This document shows positions 4,180 through 61,156 of a DNA stretch of 64,000 nucleotides, piece after piece. Numbering within the stretch: the first letter of the stretch is position 1; each line of letters begins with the position of its first letter. The stretch comes from Oryzisolibacter sp. LB2S (GTDB lineage Bacteria > Pseudomonadota > Gammaproteobacteria > Burkholderiales > Burkholderiaceae_C), in assembly GCF_040732315.1 (NCBI RefSeq), contig NZ_CP160388.1, forward strand, positions 3,438,494-3,502,493. The letters are read 5' to 3'. Both the position numbers and the translations under genes were made by a program. Below the pieces are notes generated by a model, which saw only the letters and a program-made list of their open reading frames with translations, ran no database searches and was not told where the DNA came from.

Positions 4180-4240
4180 TCACCGCTTCTTGGTGGCGTA
4201 GGCGGCCAAGTCGTCGTAGCGCTGGGTGATGAAGGGGAAC
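4180..4240 (-). pseudogene. 3' remnant of an unidentified gene, truncated by the REP doublet
   Basis: On the minus strand the bases next to the REP doublet encode a protein-like C-terminus, FPFITQRYDDLAAYATKKR, followed by TGA at 4180-4182. The codon choice (TAC, GAC, CAG, AAG) is that of a real gene. The frame runs directly into the repeat at 4241 and has no start. It looks like the last 20 or so codons of a gene whose remainder was deleted or displaced. I do not recognise the family. The rest of the 343-base gap (4005-4347) shows nothing else coding. Confidence 0.55.
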
Positions 4241-4329
4241 CCGTCATCCCCGCGCAAGCGGGGATCCAGGTGCCACACAAGCAGTTGCTTCGTCACTGCG
4301 GTGGATCCCCGCTTGCGCGGGGATGACGG
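4241..4329. repeat. 89-bp REP doublet (REPIN-like), copy 1
   Basis: Two 28-bp arms, 4241-4268 and 4302-4329, are perfect inverted repeats of each other, separated by 33 bp. Each arm is itself a hairpin: CCCCGC, tetraloop GCAA, GCGGGG, flanked by CCGTCAT and ATCCA. The same layout (28-33-28) recurs at 12324-12412. This fits a REP doublet (REPIN) of the kind mobilised in trans by RAYT transposases; no RAYT gene lies in the window. It abuts the gene remnant at 4180-4240. Confidence 0.88.
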
Positions 4330-12323: not shown

Positions 12324-12412
12324 CCGTCATCCCCGCGAAGGCGGGGATCCACAGCAGTGACAAACCAAGGATTGGGGTGACGCCTGGATCCCCGCCTTCG
12401 CGGGGATGACGG
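12324..12412. repeat. 89-bp REP doublet (REPIN-like), copy 2
   Basis: Arms 12324-12351 and 12385-12412 are perfect 28-bp inverted repeats with a 33-bp spacer, the same dimensions as the copy at 4241-4329. Each arm folds as CCCCGC, GAAG, GCGGGG. The spacer, read on the opposite strand, matches the first copy's spacer at 22 of 33 positions, including a shared GTCACTGC, so this is a second copy of the same element in the other orientation. It lies between the binding-protein gene and rep. The other bases of the 206-base gap show no gene. Confidence 0.9.
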
Positions 12413-12453
12413 GAACCAACAGACATTGCCACTTCAGCCTTTCCTGTTCTCCC

Positions 12454-14517
12454 ATGTCCGGTCTCAATCTCGCCCAGCTCCAAGCCGTGCACTACACCGA
12501 AGGCCCCTGCCTGGTGCTCGCCGGGGCGGGTTCGGGCAAGACGCGCGTGATCACGCACAAGATCGCGCGCCTGATCGAGACGGGCCTGCAGCCGCGGCGC
12601 ATCGCCGCCATCACCTTCACCAACAAGGCCGCGGCCGAGATGCGTGAGCGCGCCGCCGGGCTCATAGGCCGCCAGGCCAAGGACGTGCTGGTCTGCACCT
12701 TCCACGCGCTGGGCGTGCGCATGGTGCGCGAGGACGGCCATGTGCTGGGCCTGAAGCCGTCTTTCAGCATCCTGGACCAGGACGACGTGACAGGCATCCT
12801 CAAGGACTGCGCGGGCGGCACCGCCGACGTGGCCACGGCACGCCAATGGCAGTGGACGATCAGCAACTGGAAGAATCAGGGCTGGGACGCGCGCCGTGCG
12901 CTGGCCATGGCCCAGGACGACCACGAGCGCAGCATCGCCCTCATCATGCAGCGCTACGAGGAGCGCCTCACGGCCTACCAGAGCGTGGACTTCGACGACC
13001 TGATCGGCATGCCCATGCGCCTGCTGCGCGGCCACGCCGAGGTGCGTGAAAAATGGCAGCGCCTCCTGGGCCATGTGCTCGTCGACGAATACCAGGACAC
13101 CAATGCCACGCAGTACGAGCTCTTGAAGCTGCTCGTGGGCGAGCGCGCGCGCTTCACGGCCGTGGGCGATGACGACCAGAGCATCTACGGCTGGCGCGGC
13201 GCGACACTGGACAACCTGAAGAAGCTGCCGGTGGACTTCCCCGCGCTCAAGGTCATCAAGCTCGAGCAGAACTACCGCTCCACCTCGGCCATTCTGCGCG
13301 CGGCCAACAACGTCATCGGCCCCAATCCCAAGCTGTTTCCCAAGACCTTGTTCAGCGAACTCGGCGAGGGCGAGCCCGTGCGCGTGGTGGATTGCGACAA
13401 CGAGGAGCACGAGGCCGAGCGCGCCGTGGCCCGCATCCAGGGCCTGCGCGCCGGCTCCAACCCGCCGCCGGCGTGGAAGAACTTCGCCATCCTCTACCGC
13501 GCCAACCATCAGGCCAAGCCGTTCGAGAAAGCCCTTCGCCGCGCCAACATCCCGTACAAGGTCTCGGGCGGCACGAGTTTCTTCGACCGCGCCGAAATCA
13601 AGGATCTGTGCGCCTGGTTTCGCCTGTGGATCAACAACGACGACGACCCGGCCTTTCTGCGCGCCATCACCAGCCCGCGCCGCGGCGTGGGCCACACCAC
13701 GCTGGGGGCGCTGGGCGAGTTCGCCACCCAGCACAAGCAAAGCATGTTCGGCGCGCTGTTCAACGCCATGCTGCCGGCCGTGATACCGAAGCGTGGCATG
13801 GACGGGCTGCACGAGTTCGGCCGCCTCATCAACGACCTGGAGCACCGTGCGCGCCACACCCATGGGGCCGAGGACGCGCGCGCCTTCCTCGCCGACTGGC
13901 TCAAGGAAATCGGCTACGAGCAGCACATCTACGACAGCGAGGACAGCGAGAAGGTCGCCGCCGCGCGCTGGAGCAATGTGCTGGAGTTCTGCGACTGGAT
14001 GGCCCAGCGCGCGGGCGGCCAGATCGACGACACGGCCGCCACCACGATGACGCCGACCAAGAGCCTGCTCGAGGTCGCGCAGACCATCGCCCTGCTGTCC
14101 ACTATTCAAGAGCGCGAGCAGGAACAGGACATGGTGGTGCTGTCCACGCTGCACGCCAGCAAGGGCCTGGAATGGCCGCATGTGGTGCTGGTCGGCGTGA
14201 CCGAGGGCATGCTGCCCTTCAAGCTCGACGACGACGAGGGCCGCCAGCAAAAGGTGACGGACGACATCGCCGCACGCCTGCAGGAGGAGCGCCGCCTGAT
14301 GTACGTGGGCATCACGCGCGCCCAGCGCACGCTGGCCGTGAGCTGGACCAAGAAGCGCAAGAAGGGCCGCGAGATGGTGGCCTGCCAGCCGAGCCGCTTC
14401 ATCGCCGAGATGAAGCTCGACGCCGCCACCAGCCGCGAAGACCCGCGCGAAAAACTGCGCAAGCTGCGCGCCGAATTTGCCGCCAAGGCCCAGGCCGCGC
14501 CCGCGGCCAATCCCTGA
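12454..14517 (+). CDS. rep: ATP-dependent DNA helicase Rep (UvrD/Rep family, SF1A)
   Basis: A 687-residue superfamily 1A helicase. It begins LNLAQLQAVHYTEGPCLVLA, the Q-motif region of Rep, then has Walker A GAGSGKT (about 23-29), motif Ia ITFTNKAAAEM, Walker B VDEYQDTN (nt 13082-13105), motif III GDDDQSIYGWRGA, motif IV QNYRST, motif V STLHASKGLEW and motif VI EERRLMYVGITRAQ. Length and the N-terminal start match Rep (about 670-690 residues) better than UvrD (about 720-780). Rep helps forks pass bound proteins. The ATG at 12454 was chosen; the frame extends into the REP doublet upstream, which is not coding. The downstream gene starts 4 bases after the stop. Confidence 0.94.
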   Translation: MSGLNLAQLQAVHYTEGPCLVLAGAGSGKTRVITHKIARLIETGLQPRRIAAITFTNKAAAEMRERAAGLIGRQAKDVLVCTFHALGVRMVREDGHVLGLKPSFSILDQDDVTGILKDCAGGTADVATARQWQWTISNWKNQGWDARRALAMAQDDHERSIALIMQRYEERLTAYQSVDFDDLIGMPMRLLRGHAEVREKWQRLLGHVLVDEYQDTNATQYELLKLLVGERARFTAVGDDDQSIYGWRGATLDNLKKLPVDFPALKVIKLEQNYRSTSAILRAANNVIGPNPKLFPKTLFSELGEGEPVRVVDCDNEEHEAERAVARIQGLRAGSNPPPAWKNFAILYRANHQAKPFEKALRRANIPYKVSGGTSFFDRAEIKDLCAWFRLWINNDDDPAFLRAITSPRRGVGHTTLGALGEFATQHKQSMFGALFNAMLPAVIPKRGMDGLHEFGRLINDLEHRARHTHGAEDARAFLADWLKEIGYEQHIYDSEDSEKVAAARWSNVLEFCDWMAQRAGGQIDDTAATTMTPTKSLLEVAQTIALLSTIQEREQEQDMVVLSTLHASKGLEWPHVVLVGVTEGMLPFKLDDDEGRQQKVTDDIAARLQEERRLMYVGITRAQRTLAVSWTKKRKKGREMVACQPSRFIAEMKLDAATSREDPREKLRKLRAEFAAKAQAAPAANP

Positions 14518-14520
14518 AAC

Positions 14521-14949
14521 ATGTTTAGAACTTCTATTTTGATAGCTGTCAGCGCTTGCCTGATAAGTGCCTGCGCCCAAAATCATTCAAAATCCGCGCG
14601 CCCCACCTGCCCCACGGCGACGCAGATGGAGCAGCCCGAGCTCATAGGCCGCTGGCAGGCCGACATGCCCGGCCAGAGCGGCCCCATCGTGCTCGAGCTC
14701 GCGCCCCATCCCGAGTGGGACGGCACGGTCAAGGGCCGCATCCTGCGCCCGGGCTACAGCGCCATCGTGGTCGGCGACGTACACCAGGGCCAGCTGACCA
14801 TGGAGGAGTCGCGCGACGGCACGCACGTCAGCGGCAACTGGTTCGGCGACGTCGTCGAGGGCAGCTGCGCGCGCGAGATCCGCGGCGAATGGACCGACGA
14901 GGCCGACCGCCCGTTTGCCTTCACGCTGCGCAAGCTCGACCGACCATGA
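14521..14949 (+). CDS. Small predicted lipoprotein of unknown function
   Basis: A 142-residue protein. The N-terminus (about residues 4-18) is a signal peptide with a lipobox-like ISAC ending at Cys18. The mature domain is small and beta-rich: PELIGRWQADM, IVLELAPHPEWDGTVKGRI, VSGNWFGDVVEG. It resembles a compact lipocalin-like or beta-barrel fold, but I do not recognise the family. The coding sequence for the signal peptide is AT-richer than its surroundings and coincides with a copy of the dispersed GATAGCTG repeat (14537-14592). There is no clear ribosome site before the ATG. An internal ATG at 14626 (MEQPELIG) would give a cytoplasmic form. Its stop overlaps the pldA start (ATGA), so the two are coupled, suggesting an envelope role. 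Confidence 0.75.
   Translation: MFRTSILIAVSACLISACAQNHSKSARPTCPTATQMEQPELIGRWQADMPGQSGPIVLELAPHPEWDGTVKGRILRPGYSAIVVGDVHQGQLTMEESRDGTHVSGNWFGDVVEGSCAREIRGEWTDEADRPFAFTLRKLDRP
14537..14592 (+). repeat. GATAGCTG dispersed hairpin repeat, copy inside a coding sequence
   Basis: The stretch beginning TTTTGATAGCTGTCAGCGCT and ending near CCCAAAATCATTCAAAA aligns with the copy at 22561: both share TTGATAGCTG, a GCGC core, ATAAG(T/C)GCC and GCCCA. It starts 16 bases inside the small lipoprotein gene and encodes most of its signal peptide and lipobox. Confidence 0.75.
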
Positions 14950-16088
14950 GGCGCGCACTCATCCCCACCCTGCTGGGCGCCACCATGGCGCTGCCCGCCC
15001 TGGCGCAGGAGCCCGCGGCGCATGGCGACGCCGGCTGGCGCCAATGCAGCGCCCTTGCCGACGGCCAGGCGCGGCTCGCGTGCTTCGACCAATGGGCGGG
15101 CCGCCAGGCATGGCAGGCCCCCGCGGCCTCGGCCCAGGATCACCCGCCGAGCGCCAGCCCCGCGGCACCCGTGCAGCTGGCCACCCAGGCCGCGCCGCCC
15201 GTGCCCCCGGAAGACGAGGGCGAGGGCTGCCGTGGCACGGCCCACACCACCATGTCGCGTTTCTGGGAGCTGGAGTCGGGCACCGACTGCGGCACGCTGC
15301 GCTTTCGCGGCTACCGGCCCATGAGCGTGTCCGTGGTCCATGGCAGCAGCGTGAACCGGCAGCCCCGCTCGTCCAACCCGATCAACAACGCCAGCAGCAC
15401 GGTGGACTACCGCAGGACCGAGATGCGCGTGCAGCTGTCGGTGCGCACCAAGCTCGCCAAGGGCCTGCTGCCGCACCCGGATCCCGAGGCGCGCGACTCG
15501 CTCTGGTTCGGCTACACCCAGCAGTCCTACTGGCAGCTGTTCAGCCCCGGGATCTCGCGCCCGTTTCGCACCACCGACCACGAGCCCGAGATCGTCTACG
15601 TCTACCCCACCACGGCCAACCTGCCCTGGGGCTGGCGCTGGCGCTACAGCGGCCTGGGCCTGGTGCACCAGTCCAATGGCCAGAGCCTGCCGCTGTCGCG
15701 CAGCTGGAACCGCGTCTACCTGATGACCGGCATCGAGCAGGGCGACCGCTGGCGCCTCTCGGGCCGCATCTGGAAGCGCATCCCCGAGGGCGCCGCCGAC
15801 GACGACAACCCCGGCATCAGCGGCTACATCGGCCGCGCCGAGCTGTCCCTGGCCTGGAACCCCAACCCCGACAACACCCTGTCGCTGACGGCACGCCACT
15901 CGCTGGGCTCGGTGGCGCGCGGCTCGGTGCGCCTGGAATGGCTGCAGACCCTGGGCAGCAGCCTGCTGGGCAAACCAAGCAACCTGCGCCTGCACACGCA
16001 GCTGTTCTCGGGCTATGGCGACAGCCTGGTGGACTACAACCGCCGCCGCACCATGTTCAGCGTGGGCGTGAGCCTGGTGGACTTCTGA
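14946..16088 (+). CDS. pldA: Outer membrane phospholipase A (OMPLA)
   Basis: A 380-residue outer-membrane beta-barrel phospholipase that removes misplaced phospholipids from the outer leaflet. The catalytic triad is visible with canonical spacing: His241, Ser243 and Asn255 in HQSNGQ...SRSWNRVY, identical to the H142/S144/N156 spacing of E. coli PldA. A signal peptide occupies residues 1-20 (ALPALAQ). It is followed by a Cys-containing segment (CSALADGQARLACFDQWAG), common in the betaproteobacterial form, and a Pro/Ala-rich linker to about residue 85. The barrel follows and ends in a C-terminal Phe (VSLVDF), the usual outer-membrane signal. The start overlaps the stop of the lipoprotein gene. 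Confidence 0.95.
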   Translation: MRRALIPTLLGATMALPALAQEPAAHGDAGWRQCSALADGQARLACFDQWAGRQAWQAPAASAQDHPPSASPAAPVQLATQAAPPVPPEDEGEGCRGTAHTTMSRFWELESGTDCGTLRFRGYRPMSVSVVHGSSVNRQPRSSNPINNASSTVDYRRTEMRVQLSVRTKLAKGLLPHPDPEARDSLWFGYTQQSYWQLFSPGISRPFRTTDHEPEIVYVYPTTANLPWGWRWRYSGLGLVHQSNGQSLPLSRSWNRVYLMTGIEQGDRWRLSGRIWKRIPEGAADDDNPGISGYIGRAELSLAWNPNPDNTLSLTARHSLGSVARGSVRLEWLQTLGSSLLGKPSNLRLHTQLFSGYGDSLVDYNRRRTMFSVGVSLVDF

Positions 16089-22560: not shown

Positions 22561-22616
22561 AATTGATAGCTGCCTGCGCACTATACATAAGCGCCAGAGC
22601 CCATTTTTATCTAAAT
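22561..22616. repeat. GATAGCTG dispersed hairpin repeat
   Basis: AT-rich 56-base copy starting AATTGATAGCTGCCTGCGCA with the second half ATAAGCGCCAGAGCCCATTTTT. It sits in the divergent gap between the zinc-ribbon gene and the PAS gene, the only copy between two start codons. Confidence 0.8.
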
Positions 22617-25013: not shown

Positions 25014-26916
25014 TCAACCCAGCTCCAGCAGAGCCGCCACGCGCTCGCGCAGCGCATGGGGCTGCACGCTGGCCGCGGCCAGGGGCTCGCCCACGTTCAG
25101 CCCCACGCGATTCCAGAACCCGCGCCTGAACGGCCGCACCATGGCCCCGCCCTGCTCTATGCGGCTGAAGAACGAGCCCCAGAGATGGGTCAGCGCCATG
25201 GGCACCACGGGCGCATCCACGCCATCGGCGCGCGCGCGCTCGATGATCTTCATGATGCCGCCCTTGAACTCCTGCAGCTGCCCGTCGCGCGTGATGCCGC
25301 CCTCGGGGAAGATGGCGAGCAGGTCGCCCTCGCGCAGCACCTGGGCGGCGCGCTCGAACGCGGCCTCGTAGGTCGCGGGGTCTTCCTTCTGCGGCGCCAC
25401 GGGTATGGCCTTGGCCAGCCTGAAGATCGCCCCCAGCACCGGGATGCGGAAGATGCGGTGGTCCATGAGGAAGTAGATGGGCCGGGGGCTCGCGGCCATG
25501 AGCAGCACGGCGTCGATGAAGCTCACATGGTTGCAGGCCAGGATGGCCGCGCCCTGCGTTGGCAGATGCTCGTCGCCGCGCACCCTGAAGCGGTAGATGC
25601 AGCGCGACAGCACCCACGAGAAGAAGCGCAGCAGGTATTCGGGCACCAGCATGAAGATGTAGAAGGCCACGATGGCGTTGGCAATGGCCGTGAACAGGAA
25701 CACCTGCGGCACAGTGAAACCCGCCGACAGCAGCGCGCCGGCCAGCACGGCGCTGGCGATCATGAACAGCGCATTCAGTATGTTGTTGGCGGCGATGATG
25801 CGCGCGCGGTGCGTGCTCTGGCTGCGCATCTGGATCAGCGCGTACATGGGCACGCTGTACAGGCCCGCAAACAGCGAGAGCAGCAGCAAGTCCAGCATCA
25901 CGCGCCAATGCGCGCCCTGGGCCAGGAACGCGGCCAGGCCCATGGTGGGCCGCGCCGGCAGGCCGCGCGAGGCGAAGTACAGGTCGATGGCAAACACGCT
26001 CATGCCGATGGCGCCCAGCGGCACCAGGCCTATCTCCACATGGCGGCGCGAGAGCACCTCGCACAGCAGCGAGCCCACGCCTATGCCCACCGAGAACACC
26101 ACGAGCAGCAGCGAGGCCACCTGCTCGTCACCATGCAGCACCTCCTTGGCAAAGCTCGGGAACTGGGAGAGGAACACCGCGCCGAAGAACCACATCCAGC
26201 TGATGCCCAGCAGCGAGCGGAAGACCACGATGTTCTCGTGCGCCAACTTGAGGTTGCGCCAGGTCTCGCTCACCGGGTTCCAGTTGATGGTGAGGCCCGG
26301 GTCGGTGGCGGGCGCGCGCGGGATGAACTGCGCCACCAGCCGCCCGGCCAGCGCCAGCGCCAGACAGGCCGCGGCCACGGCGCCATGGCCCACGTCCGGC
26401 AGCGCGACGAGCAGGCCACCGGCCACATTGCCCAGCAGGATGGCGACGAAGGTGCCCATCTCCACCATGCCGTTGCCGCCCGTGAGCTCGCGCTCGTTCA
26501 GGGCCTGCGGCAGATAGGCGAACTTGACCGGCCCGAACAGCGTGGAATGCAGCCCCATGAGGAACACGCAGGCCAGCAGCACGGCCGCGCTGCCCGCCAT
26601 GAAGCCCGCGCCCGCCAGCAGCATGATGGCGATCTCCAGGTTCTTCACGAAGCGGAATGCGCGTCTTCTCGATCTTGTCCGTGATCTGCCCGGCCGTGGC
26701 CGAGAACAGCAGGAACGGCAGGATGAACAGCGCGCCAATCACCAGCCCCGCCATGGCCGGCGGCAGCCACGCCACCTGCAGCTGGTAGGTGACCATGACC
26801 GTGAAGGCGAACTTGAACAGGTTGTCGTTCGCCGCGCCGGCAAACTGCGTCCAGAAGAACGGGGCGAAGCGGCGCTGGCCGAGCAGCGCAAACTGGTTGG
26901 AATGGGTGTCGCTCAT
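25014..26916 (-). pseudogene. LplT-like MFS / PlsC acyltransferase fusion, interrupted by a frameshift
   Basis: Lysophospholipid transporter-acyltransferase fusion. The N-terminal part (MSDTHSNQFALLGQRRFAPF, from ATG 26916) is an LplT-type major-facilitator domain. The C-terminal part is a PlsC-type acyltransferase with NHVSFID and FPEGGITRDG. Such proteins take up or flip lysophospholipids and re-acylate them. The two halves lie in different frames. Coding passes from one to the other at 26659-26664, where ITDKIEKTR should continue as AFRFVKNLE. Restoring one GC in the CGCGC run gives a continuous 634-residue protein. So it is a two-base contraction of a GC repeat, real or a sequencing error. 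A 14-base tandem duplication covers the stop region. Confidence 0.85.
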
Positions 26917-28330: not shown

Positions 28331-28380
28331 ATTGTTTGTATAGCTGCAAGCGCTTTATGGACGGGCACTGGATGCCAAAA
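28331..28380. repeat. GATAGCTG dispersed hairpin repeat
   Basis: Copy reading TTTGTATAGCTGCAAGCGCT then TTATGGACGGGCACTGGATGCC and A-rich DNA. It lies 18 bases beyond the FIST stop codon, between the FIST and LprI genes, as most copies lie after stop codons. Confidence 0.75.
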
Positions 28381-28398
28381 ACACCCCAAAAAAACCGC

Positions 28399-37622: not shown

Positions 37623-37805
37623 TCAGAGGACTTTGACCAGATAGCTGATCTTGTTAATCATGCCGCGCACTTCGGGCGTGTCCTTGAGCTCGCTCACGCT
37701 GTTGAGCTTGCGCAGGCCCAGGCCACGCACGGTGGCGCGATGCGATTCCTTGGTGCCGATGGGGCTGCGCACCAGTTGAATCTTGATCGTTTGTTGCGTT
37801 GTCAT
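37623..37805 (-). CDS. rpmD: 50S ribosomal protein L30
   Basis: A 60-residue protein beginning [20 protein letters not shown] and containing [12 protein letters not shown]. The ATG at 37805 lies just after GGAGG. It follows rpsE by 14 bases in the spc operon. Confidence 0.97.
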
Positions 37806-53809: not shown

Positions 53810-53863
53810 CAAAAGCAAAAAAGGGCCGAAGCCCTTGTGTATGAAGCGCTGGAAGCTATCAAT
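53810..53863 (-). terminator. Terminator embedded in a GATAGCTG repeat, after dps
   Basis: On the minus strand a repeat copy reads ATTGATAGCTTCCAGCGCTT and runs into the hairpin AAGGGC-TTCG-GCCCTT (53821-53836) with a T run. The TGA of dps is the first part of the repeat (ATTGATAG). This is the clearest case of the repeat supplying a rho-independent terminator. Confidence 0.85.
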
Positions 53864-54398
53864 CTTCTAGCAGCGAGCGCAGCATCCACGCCGTCTGCTC
53901 GTGCACCGTCATGCGCTGGGTGAGCAGGTCGGCCGTGGGCTCGTCGCAGGCCTTGTCGGCCAGCGGGAAGAGCTCGCGCGCGGTGCGGGCCACGGCCTCG
54001 TGGCCAAGCACCAGGATGCGCACCATCTCCAGTGCCTTGGGCGGCTCGGCGGGCGCGTCGGCGATGGAGGCGAGCTTGCCGAACGCCGCATAGGAGCCCG
54101 GCGCCACATGGCCCAGCGCGCGGATGCGCTCGGCGATCGGGTCGGCCGCGTTCCACAGCTCGGTGTACTGCTCCATAAACATGGTGTGCAGGGTGTTGAA
54201 CATGGGCCCCGTCACGTTCCAGTGGAAGTTGTGCGTGGTCAGGTACAGCGTGTAGGTGTCGGCCAGCAGGCGCGACAGCCCCTGTGCGATGGCGGCGCGG
54301 TCCTTGTCGCTGATGCCGATGCGGATGCCGGGTGCGGCGATGCCCTGTTCGGCGGCGGAGGTCTTGGGTGCCTTGGTGGTTTTTGTGGCTTTGGCCAT
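53859..54398 (-). CDS. dps: Dps-family DNA-binding ferritin
   Basis: A 179-residue protein that stores iron and shields DNA during oxidative stress. A Lys/Thr/Ala-rich tail (residues 1-18) may bind DNA. The Dps core has the ferroxidase motif [20 protein letters not shown] and [19 protein letters not shown], with the His and acidic residues in place. It lies downstream of oxyR (95 bases, same strand), and E. coli dps is OxyR-activated. Start ATG follows AAGGAGTGAACA. Confidence 0.93.
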
Positions 54399-61100: not shown

Positions 61101-61156
61101 CATCAAAAACAATAGCTGCCAGCGCTTTATGCACAAGCGCTGGAGGCTATTTTTAC
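61101..61156. repeat. GATAGCTG dispersed hairpin repeat acting as terminator
   Basis: Best-formed copy: AATAGCTGCCAGCGCTT, loop TATGCAC, AAGCGCTGGAGGCTATTTTT. The 17-base arms pair with two mismatches and a T run follows, so it should terminate the EamA transcript, one base after whose stop it starts. The reverse strand also has a T-rich end (AAAAAC), so it may work both ways. Confidence 0.9.

Follow-up and report, generated by a model that had tools for sequence, protein, structure and literature searches.

One hydrophobic reading frame of a palindromic, REP/MITE-like repeat has very probably been exapted repeatedly as a Sec signal in this genome and its relatives. The repeat shares descent with the N-terminal coding DNA of a small predicted lipoprotein gene in the window (the whole 64,000-nucleotide stretch analysed here) and of mltB, dsbD and gspD elsewhere in the same genome, and the resulting signal is conserved across genera and tracks genome-wide repeat content. 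The repeat may be mobile. The likeliest course is that copies situated at the 5′ ends of genes, or inserted close to them, with the hydrophobic frame a few codons after the ATG, were taken over as Sec signals.

The repeat and its coding copy

The repeat is palindromic and about 60 nt long, with the consensus ctattaTTTTGATAGCTGCTcGCGCTTGcCgGACAAGCGCTGGAGGCcnATTTgaCTcnAAA; in a profile of 41 other copies from the same genome, information extends from about –11 to +50 around TGATAGC. With its palindromic core and its many copies dispersed over the genome it is REP/MITE-like: the exact sequence TTTTGATAGCTGNNNGCGCTTG occurs at 20 sites in the genome (none for a reversed-pattern control) and TGATAGCTGNNNGCGCTTG, with up to two mismatches allowed, at 270 sites (one for the control). 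The 8-mer GATAGCTG, by which the first-pass annotation had recognized the repeat, proved to be a poor marker: it has four sites in the window against 0.99 expected, and two of the four, at 37640 and 45096, are chance matches rather than copies of the repeat, so that its use alone was dropped. Only one of the six frames of the repeat is strongly hydrophobic, reading roughly T-x-L/F-L-I-A-A-S-A-C-L-x-S-A-x-G/A-Q-N-x-S-K; another opens with TGA TAG.

The coordinates of the lipoprotein gene, its neighbours and the repeat copies are collected in Table 1. Translation from 14521 gives the N-terminus MFRTSILIAVSACLISACAQNHSKS, in which inspection finds the features of a lipoprotein, namely a short N-region, a hydrophobic core and a lipobox with an invariant Cys. 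The product matched no family in Pfam or NCBIfam. Structure prediction yields an 8-stranded beta barrel for the mature part (mean pLDDT 90), which among the best 50 matches listed weakly resembles lipocalin-like barrels and the PvdP barrel domain (query TM at most 0.55). Over positions 14537–14585 the gene agrees with the repeat consensus at 38 of 49 positions, compared with 25–26 in three shuffled windows. It had been proposed that the first ~24 codons coincide with the repeat; this stands for codons ~4 to 24, and only M1–R3 fall outside the copy, the hydrophobic core, lipobox and first seven mature residues all being repeat-derived. The accompanying statement that the repeat otherwise sits between genes describes most copies, but several others are coding.

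Table 1. Features of the window and repeat-encoded signals elsewhere in the same genome (C1 coordinates)
Feature	Position	Strand	Basis
Rep-type DNA helicase gene, 5′ neighbour, synteny marker	12406..14517	+	
Small lipoprotein gene (predicted), 142 aa	14521..14949	+	ORF, start ATG 14521
Predicted signal peptide MFRTSILIAVSACLISA	14521..14571	+	sequence; kept in genus and sister genera
Repeat copy encoding codons ~4–24 (signal core, lipobox, first mature residues)	14529..14592	+	profile of 41 other copies and consensus scan
Cys18 codon, predicted lipidated Cys of lipobox ISA-C	14572..14574	+	invariant in own genus, g9 and g123
Internal ATG (Met36)	14626..14628	+	in frame; rejected as start
pldA-like phospholipase A1 gene, 3′ neighbour, ATGA overlap	14946..16088	+	PF02253, 6.5e–85
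Intergenic repeat copy, eroded; same site filled in six relatives	22561..22609	+	consensus scan
Intergenic repeat copy	28335..28383	+	consensus scan
Repeat copy	53816..53864	–	consensus scan
Repeat copy, palindrome intact, then T run	61107..61155	+	consensus scan, folding
mltB, repeat-encoded signal	C1:1087265	–	
dsbD, repeat-encoded signal	C1:3432131		
gspD, repeat-encoded signal	C1:3191441		

The intact copy at 61107 folds strongly (z –4.84), while the coding copy (z –1.45) has lost the palindrome hairpin, and the eroded intergenic copies at 22561 and 28335 likewise fail to fold as a palindrome. With an A run before its strong hairpin and a T run after it, the copy at 61107–61155 resembles a two-way terminator. 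Rfam matched no known RNA at the repeat sites. Elsewhere in the window, the Bcj11 small RNA (RF02835) was matched at 26136–26257 with 101.8 bits, and an inverted pair of 90-nt sequences 8 kb apart (4240–4329 and 12324–12413, 83% complementary) probably represents a second dispersed repeat family.

Orthologues and genome-wide repeat content

Orthologues of the lipoprotein were found in 98 of 301 genomes of the family, and at the 89 loci examined the helicase lies upstream in 81 cases and pldA is present in 58. The first-pass annotation had held that the repeat supplies both signal peptide and lipobox, and its suggested comparison of orthologues bears this out: in the genus itself and the sister genera g9 and g123 the N-terminus is kept in the same synteny, the repeat-derived signal is retained and Cys18 is invariant (lipobox variants ISAC, VSAC and ASAC), and the lipoprotein signal of g17, whose genomes are without the repeat, is GC-rich and unrelated. 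The repeat frame also ends in a lipobox in g14 and g86, and in an A-x-A-type sequence without Cys in g108, g122 and g77. In the G003 orthologue (L035, G003:C1:3152020-3152424) the stretch before the repeat has been replaced by other sequence, and there is no ATG near.

We scored the N-terminal DNA of orthologues against the repeat, taking as null 2000 synonymous recodings with the codon usage of the locus itself; in about 30 orthologues no more than one of these recodings did as well. A harsher null of 1000 recodings drew its codon usage from the repeat-like 5′ regions of other genera, and 17 orthologues from eight genera, scoring at least 42 (42–74, the window copy included), were equalled by at most 25 of the 1000. 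All 17 come from genomes with at least 110 repeat copies. Chance or convergence, by which AT-rich codons at the 5′ end, together with a hydrophobic signal of common type, would mimic the repeat, could account for scores of 26–38, which are partly ambiguous under the harsher null built on AT-rich 5′ codon usage, but as a general explanation it is scarcely credible: the window copy was reached by one of 1000 recodings under the harsher null and none of 2000 under the ordinary one, 16 other orthologues join it in the 42–74 range, and a control, the start region of the downstream gene, had a median score of 16.5 and never exceeded 28.

Repeat likeness is moreover confined to repeat-rich genomes, 28 of 34 of which have a repeat-like lipoprotein signal against 1 of 46 repeat-poor genomes; copy number and repeat-likeness of the signal correlate across 80 genomes (Spearman 0.72). 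Two sets of close relatives flip jointly in both respects: in g116, G121 has 246 copies versus 2–3 in G270 and G204, and in g65, G070 and G237 have 38–58 versus 0–1 in G297 and G164. In three exceptions (G136, G214 and G010) the repeat is in the genome and the lipoprotein signal is not repeat-like. When mapped on a tree of the linked Rep helicase, the state of the repeat requires 10 changes, which fits one ancient gain per gene as well as several gains; about 5 of 7 independent pairs on this tree agree and 0.5 disagree, an association with copy number that is not significant alone.

The same repeat frame in other genes

Matches to an HMM of the repeat-encoded peptide were traced to the DNA, with domains confirmed by Pfam. 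The same frame was found at the N-terminus of MltB (SLT_2), DsbD (DsbD_N) and GspD (N0 and secretin N). Under the ordinary synonymous null, and with the repeat-poor sample being small, repeat-like starts were found for mltB in 13 of 19 repeat-rich versus none of 10 repeat-poor genomes, for dsbD in 19 of 24 versus 1 of 5, and for gspD in 19 of 25 versus none of 5.

Single instances were also seen. A cytochrome c in G019 (L262, G019:C1:1000826) and a polysaccharide deacetylase in G113 (L283, G113:C1:855364) each have a repeat-encoded signal in one genome. The frame forms an N-terminal extension of an Hsp70-like protein (L358, G000:C1:3395439) and of an ABC-type permease-like protein (L356, C1:663713), where a signal peptide is not expected. 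In-frame copies lie inside the gene for a RecQ-like helicase (L295 and L347, G000:C1:142282-142341), with the RQC and HRDC domains after the copy, and inside a YgiQ-like radical SAM gene (L305, G006:C14:231505).

Probable signal recruitment, its rivals and known elements

That the repeat is untranslated and the protein cytosolic, translation starting at 14626 as the first-pass annotation had offered as an alternative, is very improbable. The ATG there is in frame, and a strongly conserved block begins near it. We nonetheless reject this start because Cys30, which lies upstream of Met36, never varies among 66 orthologues, and neither does Cys116; the shorter protein would lose Cys30 along with the whole conserved N-terminus. 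Orthologues without the repeat also have a signal at the same place, and the N-terminus with Cys18 is under more constraint than an intergenic copy. Across seven genomes, identity is 87% in the coding copy, with 33 of 47 columns invariant, compared with 67% (16 of 47) for an intergenic copy at one shared site in the same genomes. Within the coding copy, codon positions 1 and 2 are 90% and position 3 80% identical, the values for the mature part being 91% and 75%.

This codon pattern bears equally on the idea that the repeat DNA itself is kept near gene starts, as a protein-binding, processing or terminator motif, with the encoded peptide merely tolerating it. Nucleotide likeness does follow genome-wide repeat abundance, an intact copy does fold strongly, and the ATAGCT...GCGC core is the best-kept part even in an eroded intergenic copy. 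We consider this reading unlikely, since the coding copy lacks the hairpin, its codon positions 1 and 2 are the best kept, and in four of four genes (the lipoprotein gene, mltB, dsbD and gspD) the repeat frame is uninterrupted and follows in phase from a nearby ATG. Under the preferred reading, recruitment of the repeat as a signal, copies would have been placed by insertion rather than by exchange of ready-made signals between genes, and the repeat-encoded peptide would direct export and be cleaved off. In the lipoprotein gene, point changes would have turned the end of the frame from S-A-G/R to the lipobox S-A-C, with signal peptidase II then acting and Cys18 becoming lipidated.

A further possibility, which we hold only tentatively and think rather doubtful, is that in repeat-rich genomes conversion or DNA-level selection keeps the nucleotide sequence of signal-coding copies matched to the repeat family of their genome, and that such copies revert to ordinary codons where the family is lost. 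It is suggested because gspD of the repeat-poor G137 keeps the peptide LHSIAASTLLLCAG in the ordinary codons ATT GCC GCC AGC ACC CTG; gspD in repeat-rich genomes retains ATA GCT. Among Ile codons in the genes of the window 5.7% are ATA, and among Ala codons 2.4% are GCT. The retention of ATA GCT would be compatible with conversion among copies, with DNA-level selection and with recency.

Coding sequence derived from repeats is already known from Rickettsia palindromic elements (RPE) and RU-1/RU-2. One such case in Yersinia is a partial signal peptide: the RU-2/YPAL MITE contributes to that of YPO1552 (Delihas 2007, PMC2759123, PMC2229807). That element is 168 bp long and affects a single gene, which is conserved within Yersinia and of unknown function, whereas the present repeat is ~60 nt and would serve four or more conserved exported proteins in many genera. 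The comparison with RPE is one of principle, that of palindromes read in frame within conserved protein genes, here at the starts of mltB, dsbD and gspD and internally in recQ and the YgiQ-like gene; RPE are 105–150 bp and no signal-peptide role is described for them in the RPE literature examined, whereas recruitment here centres on N-terminal signals. The beta-proteobacterial repeat element (BRE), which occurs in Bordetella and Comamonadaceae, is likewise dispersed and mostly intergenic with some copies within ORFs (PMC3110155). As described (~90 bp with 69% GC, in no more than 29 copies and a single one in Acidovorax JS42; PMC3110155), it differs from the present repeat, which is shorter, AT-richer and present in hundreds of copies in related genomes; disagreeing in length, composition and copy number, the two are unlikely to be the same family. 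In the open-access literature, searches with the sequence of the present repeat gave only unrelated matches, searches by topic found no description of it in Comamonadaceae, and we found no report of one repeat recruited for the signals of several unrelated conserved genes. That such recruitment recurs in four conserved genes and in many genera thus appears to be new.

Signal peptides evolve fast, and to our knowledge the origin of new ones is poorly documented. In the present case the signals of a lipoprotein, a murein hydrolase, a disulfide-exchange protein and a type II secretin can be traced to one repeat family as their raw material. The system makes it possible to test directly how repeats turn into functional parts of proteins and whether the repeat family retains its hold on them afterwards. 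If signal codons are indeed maintained together with the repeat family, several core export genes would have their signal peptides shaped jointly by the spread and upkeep of one repeat.
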